Source: Eggerthellaceae bacterium
GTDB lineage: Bacteria > Actinomycetota > Coriobacteriia > Coriobacteriales > Eggerthellaceae
Length of the DNA: 44,707 nucleotides
Assembly: GCA_022644775.1 (NCBI GenBank)
Contig: JALCHN010000012.1
Coordinates: 1 to 44,707 of the forward strand
Reading direction: 5' to 3'
Made by a program: the position numbers and the translations under genes. A model generated the notes under the pieces. It made no database searches. It was not told the DNA's origin and saw nothing but the letters and a program-made list of their open reading frames with translations. Of the stretch, positions 230 to 35,992 are shown piece after piece. Each line of letters starts with the position of its first letter. Within the stretch, counting starts at the first letter, position 1.

Positions 230-257
230 TTGACACACTCAGAACTTGTCCTAGTCT
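230..257 (+). promoter_or_regulatory. candidate sigma70 promoter for the leader-MFS unit
   Basis: TTGACA (230-235) is a perfect -35 box, followed after 16 nt by TAGTCT (252-257), which matches 4 of 6 bases of the -10 consensus. A transcript from here would begin near 264, where an 8-bp hairpin (264-271 with 277-284) lies, and would cover the leader peptide at 301. Confidence 0.55.
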
Positions 258-300
258 AAGGGCCGTCGAGCAAAGGGCTCGACGAACGAAAGGATGAAAC

Positions 301-348
301 ATGAACCTGCTGGTTACCCTGATTTCGATTACGAGCGTGATTAGTTAG
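301..348 (+). CDS. 15-residue branched-chain-rich leader peptide
   Basis: This short ORF encodes MNLLVTLISITSVIS. Eight of 15 residues are Leu, Ile or Val, and two are Thr. A clear ribosome binding site (GAAAGGA, 288-294) lies 6 nt before the ATG. The stop codon (346-348) is inside the 5' arm of the first of two competing hairpins, and a strong terminator follows before the MFS gene. This is the arrangement of amino-acid attenuators such as ilv/thr leaders, where ribosome stalling at scarce-amino-acid codons sets the RNA fold. The peptide itself probably has no function. Coding status is inferred from RBS, composition and context. Confidence 0.7.
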   Translation: MNLLVTLISITSVIS

Positions 349-392
349 CACGGGTAGCCGGTTTGCGCCGCCCGTGCTTCCTTGACGGGCGG
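347..392 (+). promoter_or_regulatory. attenuator: mutually exclusive hairpins
   Basis: Hairpin 1 pairs AGCACGGG (347-354) with CCCGTGCT (371-378). Hairpin 2 pairs CCGCCCGT (368-375) with ACGGGCGG (385-392). They share bases 371-375 and cannot form together. The left arm of hairpin 1 overlaps the leader stop codon, so a ribosome terminating or stalling there would change the choice. I do not see a direct overlap between hairpin 2 and the downstream terminator stem, so how the switch reaches the terminator is unresolved. Confidence 0.6.
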
Positions 393-404
393 TCGATGAG
401 CTGA

Positions 405-444
405 AAAGCCAGCGACTGCAATCAGTGCAGCCGCTGGCTTTTTT
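405..444 (+). terminator. attenuator terminator upstream of MFS gene
   Basis: The stem AGCCAGCG (407-414) with CGCTGGCT (432-439) is extended inside by CTGCA (416-420) with TGCAG (426-430). It is followed by a run of T to 444 and preceded by A residues that can pair with it. This is a textbook intrinsic terminator between the leader peptide and the transporter start, so transporter expression needs read-through. Confidence 0.85.
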
Positions 445-510
445 ACGTTTGCAGCAGCGCTCCGCCGAGGACCCCGGACGATACGGTTCAATTTCGGAAG
501 GAGCACACAC

Positions 511-1842
511 ATGTCAAGTACGGCAACAGCAACGCGCTCGATGGCGATGAGCACGCCCGCGAAGGAGCGCGACTCGGTCGCGGAGGTGATGGGCGCCTCG
601 ATGGTGGGCACCGCCATCGAGTTCTACGACAACTACTGCTACTCGATCGCCGCGGCCAGCTATTTCGGCACGATCTTCTTCACCGACGTGGCTAAATCCG
701 ACCCCCTGCTGGCCACCATCATGGCCTTCGTGACCTTTGCCGTGTCCTTCATCGCGCGCCCCTTCGGATCGCTGCTCTTCGGCCACTTCGGCGATAAGCT
801 CGGCCGCAAGAAGACCCTCGTCGTCGCCCTCATGATGATGGGCATCGCCACCTTCACCGTGGGCCTTTTGCCCGGCTACGAGCAGCTCGGCACCCTCGCC
901 GTCGTCCTGCTCTGCGTCTGCCGCGCCTGCCAGGGCATCGGCCTTGCCGGCGAATGGTCGGGCGCCGCGCTCGTCGCGACCGAAAACGCCCCGGCCGGCA
1001 AGCGCGCGATCTTCGGCGCCTTCCCCAACATGGGCGCTCCGATCGGATTCTTCCTGGCCTACGGCATCAACCTCCTGCTCGACACCAACCTCTCGAGCGA
1101 CGTCATGGTTGCCTGGGGCTGGCGCATCCCCTTCCTGCTTTCCGCCGTGCTCGTCATCGTGGGCCTCGTCATCCGCCTGCGCATGAGCGAAACGCCCGTC
1201 TTCAAGAAGGCCGTTGAAGAGAACCGCACCACCCGCACCCCGCTGCGCGACCTTCGCCACTACTGGAAGCAGGTTGTGCTGGGCATGTGCGCCATCTCGG
1301 TGACCTACACCCTGTTCTACTCGCTCGGCACCTGGTCGCTGGCCTACGGCGTGAAGAGCCTGGGCTTCACCCAGTCGCAGTACCTGTCGATGGAGCTCTT
1401 CGCCGTCCTCTTCTTCGCCGCCTTCATCGTAGTGGGCTGCCTGTCCGCCGACCGCTTCGGCCGCAAGCGCACCCTCTACACCGCGACCGCTGCGATGCTC
1501 GTGTTCAGCCTGGTCTGCCCGCAGTTGCTCACCGGCACGCAGAACTTCGCCGGCGTGCTCGCCTTCCTCTGCGTGGGCTTCAGCATCATGGGCGCCCTCT
1601 TCGGCCCCTGCGGCGCCTACCTGCCGGAACTCTTCCCCGCGAAGGTGCGCTACTCCGGATCGGGCCTGGCCTACAACCTGGCTGCCGTGACCGGCGGCGC
1701 GTTCGCCCCGACGATCGCCACCGCGCTCGTTACCTCCTTCGGCATCCAGGCGCTCGGTTGGTACCTGGGCATCATGGCCGTGATCGCGCTCGTGGCTCTC
1801 TACTTCATCAAGGAGAGCAAGGACGTCGACTACGAGGTGTAA
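511..1842 (+). CDS. MHS-type MFS transporter
   Basis: This 443-residue protein has about 12 hydrophobic segments, typical of the major facilitator superfamily. The loop 2-3 signature GHFGDKLGRKKT is at residues ~91-102, and a second copy (DRFGRKR) lies at ~314 in the second half. The N-terminal pattern (GTAIEFYDNYCYS, then YFGTIFF) is that of the metabolite:H+ symporter branch, which includes ShiA- and ProP-like carriers of organic acids, shikimate or betaines. Substrate cannot be read from sequence. The branched-chain-type attenuator upstream suggests a branched-chain amino acid, keto acid or related compound (inference). The ATG at 511 has AAGGAG 7 nt upstream. A GC-rich hairpin follows the gene. 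Confidence 0.9.
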   Translation: MSSTATATRSMAMSTPAKERDSVAEVMGASMVGTAIEFYDNYCYSIAAASYFGTIFFTDVAKSDPLLATIMAFVTFAVSFIARPFGSLLFGHFGDKLGRKKTLVVALMMMGIATFTVGLLPGYEQLGTLAVVLLCVCRACQGIGLAGEWSGAALVATENAPAGKRAIFGAFPNMGAPIGFFLAYGINLLLDTNLSSDVMVAWGWRIPFLLSAVLVIVGLVIRLRMSETPVFKKAVEENRTTRTPLRDLRHYWKQVVLGMCAISVTYTLFYSLGTWSLAYGVKSLGFTQSQYLSMELFAVLFFAAFIVVGCLSADRFGRKRTLYTATAAMLVFSLVCPQLLTGTQNFAGVLAFLCVGFSIMGALFGPCGAYLPELFPAKVRYSGSGLAYNLAAVTGGAFAPTIATALVTSFGIQALGWYLGIMAVIALVALYFIKESKDVDYEV

Positions 1843-5965: not shown

Positions 5966-7204
5966 CTATTCCCGCTTACCCAGCGGCAGTTCCACGCGCA
6001 CCGCGAAGCCGCCCTGCGGACGATTCCCGGCCGAAAACGTCCCTTTCAAAACTGTAACGCGTTCGGCCATGCCCTGCACGCCGTGCCCGCTCGATTCCGA
6101 AAGGCCATCGGAAGCGGCGGTGCCTTCGGGCATGCCGCAGCCGTCGTCTTCCACCGAAAGGACGGCGGTGACGTCGGTGTTCGCAAGCCGCACCTTCAGC
6201 TTGTGGGCGTGGGCGTGACGCACCGTGTTGGTGATCGCCTCGCGCGCGATACCGAACAGGGCCACGTCGACGTAGGCGGGTACCTGGGCGGCGTCGTAGC
6301 CGGCGTCGTCGTAGGTGACCTCGAGCCCGGCCTCGCGCGCGTATTCGCACAGGTCGGGCATGCGGTCGGTGCCGTTGGTGGGCTTGGTTTCGGCTTCGGC
6401 GTCTTCGTTGCGCAGGACGCTGATCATCGAGCGGATCTCTTCCAAGGCCGATTTCGACGTGAGGCGAATCTGCGCCACCGCTTCCTTGGCCATGGCCGGG
6501 TTGCGGTCGATGAGGCGCTCGGCCGCGGCAGCCTGGATGCTCACCGCCGAAAGCGAATGGGCCGTGATGTCGTGGATTTCGCGGGCGATGCGCACGCGCT
6601 CCTCTTCGACGCGGCGGGCCGATTCCTCTTCGATGCGGCGCTGGGTTTCCTCGGCGCGCGCCTTCGATTCTTCCTTGTAGTTGTTGAAGGCGTAGAGGGC
6701 CAGGCCCACGCCGGCGGCTACCGCGAACAGGGTGAGGTTCTGCACGACCACCGCTAGGCGGATGGCCGCGTTCTCGCCCGGGGGCGGCATCCAGAACAGG
6801 AGGATGACCACGATGGCCGCGGCGACGCCCGTTTCGTAGAGCGTGCGTTCGGACGCAAGCGTGAGCAGGGCGATCATAGGACCGATGGCCGAAAACGAGT
6901 AGCTGGGCGCGTCGCCTTGCGAGGTCACGAAGACCAGGAAAGTGAAGATGAAGACCTCCCAGGGCAGGCGGCGACGCACGACGAGCGGCAGCGTGGTGAG
7001 GGCGAGCAGGATGTAGATCGACGGGTCGGGGTTGCGCGAGATCACGCCCATCATGCTGCGAAAGAGCGAGTCGCGGAAGACGAGCGGCGACGAGCTCAGC
7101 GTGATCTGGATGAGCGCGAACATGAAAGCGGCCACGGCGATGAGCACGTCGAGTACCCAGTCGAGCCGGTCCATCTTGCAGTTGTTAACGAGAATGTCTT
7201 TCAT
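5966..7204 (-). CDS. sensor histidine kinase (HisKA_3/NarX-type)
   Basis: This protein has about 412 residues. Residues ~15-175 contain five or six hydrophobic segments, giving a membrane sensor without a large extracellular domain. A coiled coil (~176-205) leads to the HisKA_3 dimerisation domain with phosphoacceptor His211 in REIHDITAHSLS. The ATPase domain follows (N-box region EAITNTVRHAHA, then VEDDGCGMP and a GHGVQGM G-box). It phosphorylates the adjacent NarL-type regulator. The start is uncertain: ATG at 7204 is used, TTG at 7234 or ATG at 7174 are possible, and no good RBS is visible for any. It is probably co-transcribed with the SpoU and patatin genes upstream. Confidence 0.85.
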   Translation of the reverse strand: MKDILVNNCKMDRLDWVLDVLIAVAAFMFALIQITLSSSPLVFRDSLFRSMMGVISRNPDPSIYILLALTTLPLVVRRRLPWEVFIFTFLVFVTSQGDAPSYSFSAIGPMIALLTLASERTLYETGVAAAIVVILLFWMPPPGENAAIRLAVVVQNLTLFAVAAGVGLALYAFNNYKEESKARAEETQRRIEEESARRVEEERVRIAREIHDITAHSLSAVSIQAAAAERLIDRNPAMAKEAVAQIRLTSKSALEEIRSMISVLRNEDAEAETKPTNGTDRMPDLCEYAREAGLEVTYDDAGYDAAQVPAYVDVALFGIAREAITNTVRHAHAHKLKVRLANTDVTAVLSVEDDGCGMPEGTAASDGLSESSGHGVQGMAERVTVLKGTFSAGNRPQGGFAVRVELPLGKRE

Positions 7205-28350: not shown

Positions 28351-28414
28351 CAGTTGCGAGCCGACGCCGCGCCAAAGGGTACACCTGATGAGTTCTGCTT
28401 ATGAATCGCAACTG
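28351..28414 (-). promoter_or_regulatory. alternative pairing in riboswitch leader
   Basis: On the minus strand CAGTTGCGA (28414-28406), at the 3' side of the aptamer, can pair perfectly with TCGCAACTG (28359-28351), which is followed by TTTC. Formation would disrupt the aptamer end, so this is the likely expression platform. Whether it terminates transcription or changes access to the start is not clear. Confidence 0.5.
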
Positions 28415-28477
28415 GCTGCCATCGGTTGAAGGCCCTATAGCTTTGCGTCGCCGCCTTTCGGCGGGTTTGCCCAAAGC
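28397..28477 (-). ncRNA. c-di-GMP-I (GEMM-I) riboswitch
   Basis: The minus strand shows the class signature in order. GGGCAAACC comes first. A 5-bp stem CCGCC/GGCGG is closed by a GAAA tetraloop. Then come GACGCAAAGC, the GGGCC segment, and AUGGCAGCCAGUUGC, matching the conserved 3' side. A short closing stem GCUU (28477-28474)/AAGC (28400-28397) is possible. A -10 box TATAGT (28486-28481) lies directly upstream, placing the transcript start at the aptamer. The gene controlled is the GGDEF protein at 28318, with the EAL gene behind it. Confidence 0.88.
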
Positions 28478-28480
28478 GGA

Positions 28481-28486
28481 ACTATA
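28481..28486 (-). promoter_or_regulatory. -10 box of riboswitch-GGDEF-EAL transcript
   Basis: TATAGT on the minus strand lies about 7 nt before the expected start of the aptamer. No good -35 box is seen 16-18 nt further upstream. Confidence 0.5.
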
Positions 28487-34646: not shown

Positions 34647-35992
34647 ATGGCACACGCTGAAGCGAACGCGCCCTCAAACGGAACGCTGGGCCCGCGCGGG
34701 TCGCTCGAGGTGGGCATCGCGCTCTTTTCGATGTTCTTCGGAGCGGGCAACCTGATCATCGCCCCGCTTCTGGGCGTGCAGGCGGGGCCCTCCGTCGTGC
34801 CGGCGACGATCGGCTACCTGGTGTCGGGCGTGGGGCTGCCCATCGCGATGATCGCGGCCGTGCCCGATCGGGCACGGCCGGCGCCTTGCTCGACCGCATC
34901 GGCCCGCGCTTCTCGCGCATCTTCACCATGCTCGCCTACCTGGCCATCGGCCCCCTGCTCGCCATCCCCCGCACCGCTTCGACTTCGTTCGAAATGGTCA
35001 AGCCCCTCTTCGCCGCCAGCGGCGCGCAGATCGGGCTGGTCCAGCTCGTCTTTTCGATCGCCTTTTTCGCGGCGGCGCTCGCCCTGGCCCTGCACCCCGC
35101 CCGTATCGTGCGGCTCATGGGCAAGGTCACGGGCCCGTCGCTTATCGTGCTATTGGTGATCATGGTGGGCGCCCAGGTGGTCGCGCCGGCCGGCGACCTT
35201 GCCGACCAGGCCCAGGGCGCTTACGTGCAGGCGCCGGCGGTGGCCGGCTTCGTGCAGGGCTACCAGACCCTCGATTTGCTCGCCGCCCTCGCCTTCGGCG
35301 TCGTGATCACCAACAGCGTGCATGCGATGGGCGTCACGAGCCCCAAAGCAGCGGCAGCCCAGGTCGCGCGTTCGGGCATCGTGGCCGGCGCCCTCATGGC
35401 TCTCGTCTACTGCGCGCTCGCCTACCTGGGTGCCCGCATGGGCACGGTGGCCCCTGCGGCCGAAAACGGTGCCGAGGTCATCTCGCTTTCCGCGACGCTG
35501 CACTTCGGCGTGACGGGCACCGCGCTGACCGCGGCCGCTTTCCTTATCGCCTGCTTCAACGTGTGCGTGGGACTCGTGTCGTCGATCGGGTCGTATTTCG
35601 CCGAAACGTTCCCGCGTCTCTCTTATAAAGGTTGGGCCATCGTGATCGCGGTGGTATCGTGCGTCCTTTCGAACGCCGGGCTCACCGCAATCCTCGCCTA
35701 TTCGCTGCCCGTGCTCATGGCCCTCTATCCCATGGGCATCTGCGCGATGGTCATGGGGCTCGTGACGCGCTCGAGCGCCCATCGCGTGATGTGGCGCTGC
35801 GGCATGGCCTGCGTGGGCGCTGTGAGCGTGGCGGGCGCGGTGCGCGACGCCCTTGCGCCGGGCGCCGCGCTGCCTCTGATCGATTCCCTGCCTGCGGCGG
35901 GCATCGGCCTGGGCTGGATCGTTCCTGGACTCGTGGGCCTGGCCGTGGGCGCGCTGGTCGAGGTGGCGCTACGTGACAACGGCGGCAGGTGA
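34647..35992 (+). pseudogene. brnQ: branched-chain amino acid carrier BrnQ, frameshifted
   Basis: The first ~72 residues (frame from ATG 34647; FSMFFGAGNLI, GYLVSGVGLP) and the rest (second frame to 35992; LAIGPLLAIPRTASTSFE and ~10 further helices) are consecutive parts of one BrnQ/LIVCS sodium-coupled Leu/Ile/Val carrier. They are in different frames. Adding one G at about 34862/34863 restores a continuous reading (AVARSGTAGALLDR), so a single base is missing. The site is inside a 22-bp perfect palindrome (34857-34878), where sequencing errors are also common. It may be an assembly error or a true recent pseudogene. The last six codons and the stop (35990-35992) are encoded by a 29-bp repeat unit. 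Confidence 0.85.

Follow-up and report, generated by a model that had tools for sequence, protein, structure and literature searches.

What controls the MHS-type MFS transporter gene found near the start of a 44,707-nt stretch of DNA from an Eggerthellaceae bacterium (the whole stretch is called the window below), and which signal is read by the region preceding it? The original prediction was a leader-peptide attenuator resembling those of the branched-chain amino acid biosynthesis operons, and every sequence element that it named, i.e., promoter-like boxes, an RBS, a 15-codon ORF with eight Leu/Ile/Val codons, a stop codon inside a hairpin arm, a competing hairpin and a terminator, was found when positions 230 to 510 were read, with the transporter gene following (Table 1). 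The comparative analysis described here indicates that the transporter is very probably controlled by a ribosome-mediated transcription attenuator whose signal is the level of charged isoleucyl-tRNA.

Table 1. Features of the leader region and of the regulated gene, in window coordinates
Feature	Position	Strand	Basis or remarks
Promoter-like boxes TTGACA (230-235) and TAGTCT (252-257), 16-nt spacer	230-257	+	sequence
5' UTR hairpin upstream of the leader RBS	264-284	+	fold of 262-450
Shine-Dalgarno sequence of the leader ORF, AAAGGA	289-294	+	sequence; an SD-like sequence precedes every ortholog leader
Leader peptide ORF MNLLVTLISITSVIS, 15 codons, stop TAG 346-348	301-348	+	sequence, conserved ORF
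Strand A	347-358	+	pairs with B (367-378); would be under the ribosome once at the stop
Strand B	367-378	+	pairs with A or C
Strand C	385-395	+	pairs with B or D
Strand D, 5' arm of the terminator	401-420	+	shared with the antiterminator, in which 389-395 pairs with 413-419 and 401-403 with 410-412
Intrinsic terminator D:E, stem 404-443, T-run 439-444	404-444	+	scan, fold, covariation of the stem in 63 sites
RBS of the transporter gene GGAAGGAG	496-503	+	sequence
MHS-type MFS transporter, 443 aa, putative regulated gene	511-1842	+	Pfam MFS_1/Sugar_tr; ATG at 511

The distance from the end of the terminator to the transporter start codon is 66 nt, and the last two bases of the leader stop codon fall within strand A. 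The -10 box is weak, with three matches out of six, so no promoter was listed by a consensus scan; the two boxes, with the same 16-nt spacing, are seen again in loci L003 and L004. The scan gave one terminator, with 2.0 expected, so that the element is not singled out by the scan alone.

Orthologs of the transporter in Coriobacteriia and Bifidobacterium were collected through the transporter gene itself, without any RNA model. The same layout is found in 13 Coriobacteriia loci from two families, the window included: a leader ORF of 11 to 18 codons with a Shine-Dalgarno sequence and a TAG stop in each, and a T-run that ends 93-100 nt after the stop in all 13. A fourteenth transporter-linked site, L096, lies at the end of a contig from the L010 genome. 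The leader ORF is missing from the upstream region read in the ortholog lineage L005, and no leader was found ahead of the Bifidobacterium orthologs read, whose upstream region differs. On the MHS gene tree the distribution of the leader takes two changes, clustered, a number as low as this being reached in none of 500 shuffles, which would fit a single gain in Coriobacteriia and a single loss. Another conserved stretch, GCACAGCGGTGTGCGGCACCGCTGGCCAAAAGCC and its variants, lies in Bifidobacterium loci at a distance of up to about 300 bases before the transporter gene (L017, L019, L021, L032, and others); it gave no Rfam match in the loci scanned and is possibly a structured RNA.

The RNA of the window folds far better than expected from its composition. 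For positions 262-450 the free energy is -85.4 kcal/mol (z = -6.1), with none of 200 shuffled sequences equally stable, and for 340-446 z is -4.6 relative to shuffles. A competing hairpin next to a terminator had been predicted, and both are present, but the layout proved richer, with five strands (A to E) following the leader stop, in which A:B excludes B:C and C:D excludes D:E. Each of the four pairings is predicted in all 13 ortholog loci. The A:B hairpin, present in 13 of 13, has -19.1 kcal/mol in the window, while C:D folded without E has -17.9 kcal/mol in the window and from -11.6 to -22.4 kcal/mol across the 13 orthologs. The same pairings are predicted in eight complete sites ahead of other genes; the ninth site folded, the above-mentioned L096, has no intact terminator.

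Covariation backs both of the alternative structures. In the 13-sequence alignment, B:C plus D:E is paired in 93.4%, with 12 pairs changed on both sides and a covariation score of 0.446 (0.213 in shuffled alignments), while A:B plus C:D is paired in 96.9%, with 5 pairs changed on both sides and a score of 0.316 (0.199 shuffled); neither score was equalled in 500 shuffles, and sliding the pairing partners abolishes the signal. RNAalifold, unaided, recovers the B:C and terminator helices. Over 63 sites B:C plus D:E is paired in 94.3%, with 23 of 26 pairs altered on both sides and a score of 0.600 against 0.207 for shuffled alignments, values that lean towards this structure because the alignment was fitted to it. 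The spacing before D varies among these sites, which makes the larger alignment unusable for counting C:D pairs, and C:D was therefore judged sequence by sequence. Thus, the terminator and antiterminator hairpins are predicted to be mutually exclusive, and this arrangement, conserved upstream of the orthologs together with its covariation, exceeds what chance would be expected to produce. The predicted leader-peptide attenuator of an MHS-type transporter is in this respect borne out by the relatives, which share the leader ORF and both sets of covarying hairpins.

The leader ORF, whose translation is predicted, is a short, RBS-preceded frame in all ortholog sites, with isoleucine making up 25-30% of residues. 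In the window, eight of the 15 codons specify Leu (three), Ile (three) or Val (two), and the AUU codons for isoleucine stand 8, 6, and 2 codons before the stop; all three isoleucine codons are ATT, whereas the window transporter gene has no ATT and 21 ATC codons. In the 12 distinct peptides of the ortholog set, found through the gene and so free of codon bias from a covariance model, 43 of 174 residues are Ile (24.7%), with 17 Leu and 5 Val, whereas Ile accounts for 4.71% of codons in 51 downstream genes (coding for CstA-family and MHS proteins; the wider family of sites is described below). Leucine is at background and valine below it. The nominal binomial P of the isoleucine enrichment is about 2e-14, but such values assume independent sites, which those of one genus are not, so the direction is clear and the exponent not trustworthy. 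The 57 distinct leader ORFs known from 65 sites contain 30% Ile, and in 54 of them it occupies the penultimate codon, a figure partly favoured by the models, since leader codons sit inside them and bias the sites so found to ATT near the stop. AUU makes up 146 of 224 isoleucine codons (65%) in these leaders vs. 100 of 1403 (7%) in the 51 genes. The C-terminal residues next to the stop are conserved and the N-terminus is variable; a Leu/Val-rich start is restricted to the Hugonella-like lineage, to which the window belongs. By its codon content, then, the leader is one for isoleucine, and not, as had been predicted, for branched-chain amino acids generally.

The proposed mechanism would work as follows. 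When isoleucine is sufficient, the ribosome would reach the leader stop and cover strand A, so that B pairs with C and D with E, and transcription ends before the transporter gene. When isoleucine is scarce, the ribosome would stall at the upstream AUU/AUC codons, mostly those 5 to 8 before the stop, leaving A free to form A:B; C, thus released, would pair with D, blocking the terminator, and the transporter gene would be transcribed. Ribosome stalling, the polarity of the switch, and the physiological response are steps that we infer. The polarity was examined by masking the RNA that the ribosome would cover, taken as 13 nt beginning with the first base in its A site, and computing the hold of the upstream RNA on D before E is made. 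Among 60 sites the median fraction of D held is 0.58 for a ribosome placed at codon -6 vs. 0.18 for one at the stop; the hold is higher at codon -6 by more than 0.1 in 53 of them and the reverse is seen in none, while in shuffled A-C regions it is higher at -6 in 32% and lower in 20%. For the window alone the contrast is small, D being held at 0.74 when the ribosome is stalled and 0.60 when it is at the stop, so that the switch predicted for it would leak at equilibrium and is weaker than those of its relatives; in its lowest-energy structure with A masked, D is free. As an equilibrium computation applied to a kinetic process, this supports the proposed polarity in qualitative terms only.

Other readings of the same region differ in what they make of the leader. 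A sensor of branched-chain amino acids in general, in which Leu and Val codons would be read besides those for Ile, as in the enterobacterial ilv leaders, is suggested by the mixed codons of the window lineage (three Leu, two Val, and three Ile, kept in L003 and L004) and by the Leu-rich leaders of the MLIGLLDILVLVIS type in genomes G018, G019, and G020; it is nevertheless unlikely, as the leucine and valine contents of the ortholog leaders given above do not exceed background, valine is absent from many leaders, and isoleucine, in its penultimate position, is the sole near-universal residue. The conserved stop-proximal residues and variable N-terminus would also suit an arrest peptide, in which the nascent leader, as in TnaC, stalls the ribosome upon binding a small ligand and isoleucine matters as part of the peptide and not as a codon. 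We regard this as very unlikely, given that the leaders have loosely spaced runs of a single amino acid and no fixed motif, that a peptide-based sensor has no need of the strong AUU bias, and that a ribosome held at the stop favours the terminator in the mask computation.

Even less probable is a general sensor of slowed translation, responding to antibiotics or the stringent state, with the isoleucine codons serving merely as slow ones. AUU may indeed be decoded slowly, since it is rare in the downstream genes, but any other amino acid with rare codons would serve equally and isoleucine is chosen every time; besides, the genes concerned code for uptake systems and FAH-type hydratases, not for resistance. 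We give next to no credence to a chance ORF that has a promoter on one side and an unrelated terminator on the other and regulates nothing: it would agree with the consensus scans, whose terminator-like sites, by themselves, do not outnumber those of shuffled sequences, but it is contradicted by the conservation, by the covariation, and by the reuse of the element before other genes.

This reuse became apparent from covariance models of the element. Model R1 recovered the transporter sites present in the set that it searched and additional sites elsewhere, and model R2, built from 22 sites, matched 78 of 396 Coriobacteriia genomes at E <= 0.003, the weakest matches being due to chance; among 396 genomes drawn across the phylum it matched 14, all in families already known as carriers. 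Of 48 further sites read, 43 have a short, Ile-rich leader correctly placed, and the five lacking it were dropped. Matches L088-L090 and L186-L190 (E from about 4e-6 to 0.009), in which an Ile-rich leader is lacking at the expected position, were rejected as chance ones. The 65 accepted sites comprise 46 before CstA-family genes (two, when tested, resembled NCBIfam NF011590 below its cut-off, and the rest were assigned by the conserved N-terminus), 14 before the MHS transporter gene, three before genes of FAH-type hydratases (L105 assigned by NCBIfam below cut-off, L108 and L155 by sequence resemblance only), and two others, L167 before a ketopantoate reductase-like gene (assigned by eye) and L169, ending at a contig edge. 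The element with its Ile-rich peptide thus precedes CstA genes more often than the MHS transporter gene in Coriobacteriia. The hydratase loci with leaders of the Ile type are L105 (1954-2964), L108 (2197-2655), and L155; farther downstream in L105, on the same strand, there is a molybdopterin dehydrogenase gene (XdhA-like). As the same switch precedes transporter genes in many gut Coriobacteriia, it probably turns nutrient uptake on at a shortage of isoleucine.

The window transporter is 96% identical to its counterpart in Hugonella massiliensis. It scores below the cut-off of every NCBIfam model that it matches; the best, TIGR00883, gives 393.8 bits over the full model with a cut-off of 443.45, so the protein is MHS-related and, by this test, not a TIGR00883 member. 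Comparison with solved structures yielded a remote phosphate transporter as the sole match, and the gene has no conserved neighbours in Coriobacteriia that would give a clue to the substrate. In Bifidobacterium L033 and L007 its neighbours, identified by eye, are DAHP synthase-like and MTA/SAH nucleosidase-like genes, which are perhaps such a clue. CstA of E. coli, initially taken for a peptide transporter, is an importer of pyruvate (PMC5847655), and for this reason the transported compound may be guessed, by analogy, to be isoleucine, a peptide, or a 2-oxo acid that serves as a precursor, e.g., pyruvate. The branched-chain amino acid, keto acid or precursor of the original prediction is likewise a guess.

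The source genome contains ilvD and ilvC, and a T-box stands before its ilv operon (69 bits, E 5.5e-15; below the 93 bits of the curated threshold), as is the case in L125. The predicted likeness to attenuators of ilv biosynthesis thus fails within the source organism itself. The Ile-leader element was absent before the ilv operon in eight genomes checked, with a T-box in the two examined. No ilvC was found in G018, G211, and G249, genomes with the element before cstA, so the element appears to occur in likely prototrophs and likely auxotrophs. The T-box-like leaders before ilvD, at 6287-6490 (-) in L123 and 1488-1684 (+) in L125, are under the Rfam threshold; by eye, both seem to have GCC at the specifier position, a reading at odds with a branched-chain amino acid. 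A lysine riboswitch (RF00168, 81.5 bits) lies at 6633-6800 (-) of L111, close to the cstA site of G018.

In Rfam, no leader family exceeds its curated threshold at 230-510, where the best sense-strand leader match is Thr_leader with 12.3 bits of the 55 needed, and no T-box (RF00230) is matched even at E 10. The enterobacterial his, ilvGMEDA, leu, and thr attenuators have in common with the element a short ORF rich in one amino acid, alternative hairpins, and an intrinsic terminator followed by the gene, but they control biosynthesis operons, unlike the present one, which precedes transporter genes, is specific to isoleucine alone, belongs to Coriobacteriia, and has no Rfam leader match. The multi-strand layout of the his leader is similar to the five-strand arrangement described here. 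Closer in taxonomy is the ilvBNC leader of Corynebacterium (IlvL MTIIRLVVVTARRLP, ilvB-II motif; PMC11857589, PMC10272879), likewise actinobacterial and of 15 codons, with a terminator, antiterminator, and anti-antiterminator; it differs in preceding a biosynthetic operon, in its mixed Val/Leu/Ile codons, and in its peptide and target. Changes of valine codons in the C. glutamicum ilvBNC leader abolished valine-dependent expression (PMC11857589), while codon changes in that of S. coelicolor ilvB were without effect (PMC1262725), so that a codon-rich leader is no proof of the mechanism. The actinobacterial candidates of Seliverstov et al. 2005 (PMC1262725), also found by comparison, precede trp, ilvB, and leuS; the genome list of that work is without Coriobacteriia and no transporter is among the targets described. 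T-box leaders, such as that of the source genome's ilv operon, likewise report tRNA charging, but they bind tRNA directly, whereas the element has a conserved ORF of the translated type and no T-box match.

The open-access library searched, with subscription papers mostly outside its scope, yielded attenuators with leader peptides ahead of ilv, trp, leuS, and his genes; cstA and MHS genes were not among the targets, and no isoleucine leaders turned up for Coriobacteriia. To this extent the claim that no attenuator was described for this transporter family holds; the case is, however, no one-off, the same RNA being commoner before CstA genes. The mechanism is thus of a known kind, while the RNA family, the taxon, the specificity for isoleucine, and the targets appear to be new. 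It would be a regulatory RNA widespread among gut Actinobacteria, one that neither Rfam nor the open-access library describes, responding to one amino acid and placed mostly before transporter genes, and it would link isoleucine supply to CstA-family and MHS-type transporters, a directly testable prediction. In one genome, two RNA devices would then serve branched-chain-related genes, a T-box on ilv and a leader peptide on the transporter. Tentatively, and with more doubt than confidence, one may picture Coriobacteriia as having a regulon for isoleucine starvation whose products import or make 2-oxo acids for isoleucine synthesis, with CstA importing pyruvate, the MHS transporter another 2-oxo or branched acid, and the FAH-type hydratases taking part; if so, the RNA would be a tool to assign substrates to orphan transporters of the gut.

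Several other features of the window deserve mention. At the contig edge, positions 1-100 comprise a low-complexity T/C-rich start and then an apparent 3' end of a tRNA or tmRNA, although neither was reported there by ARAGORN. The broken state of brnQ, noted in the original prediction, is confirmed: the gene (34704-35962, +), the only PF05525 gene of the source genome, is read in two frames, 34704-34862 and 34874-35962, reflecting either a real frameshift or a sequencing error. Finally, a c-di-GMP-I riboswitch (RF01051, 56.5 bits) is located at 28404-28481 (-).
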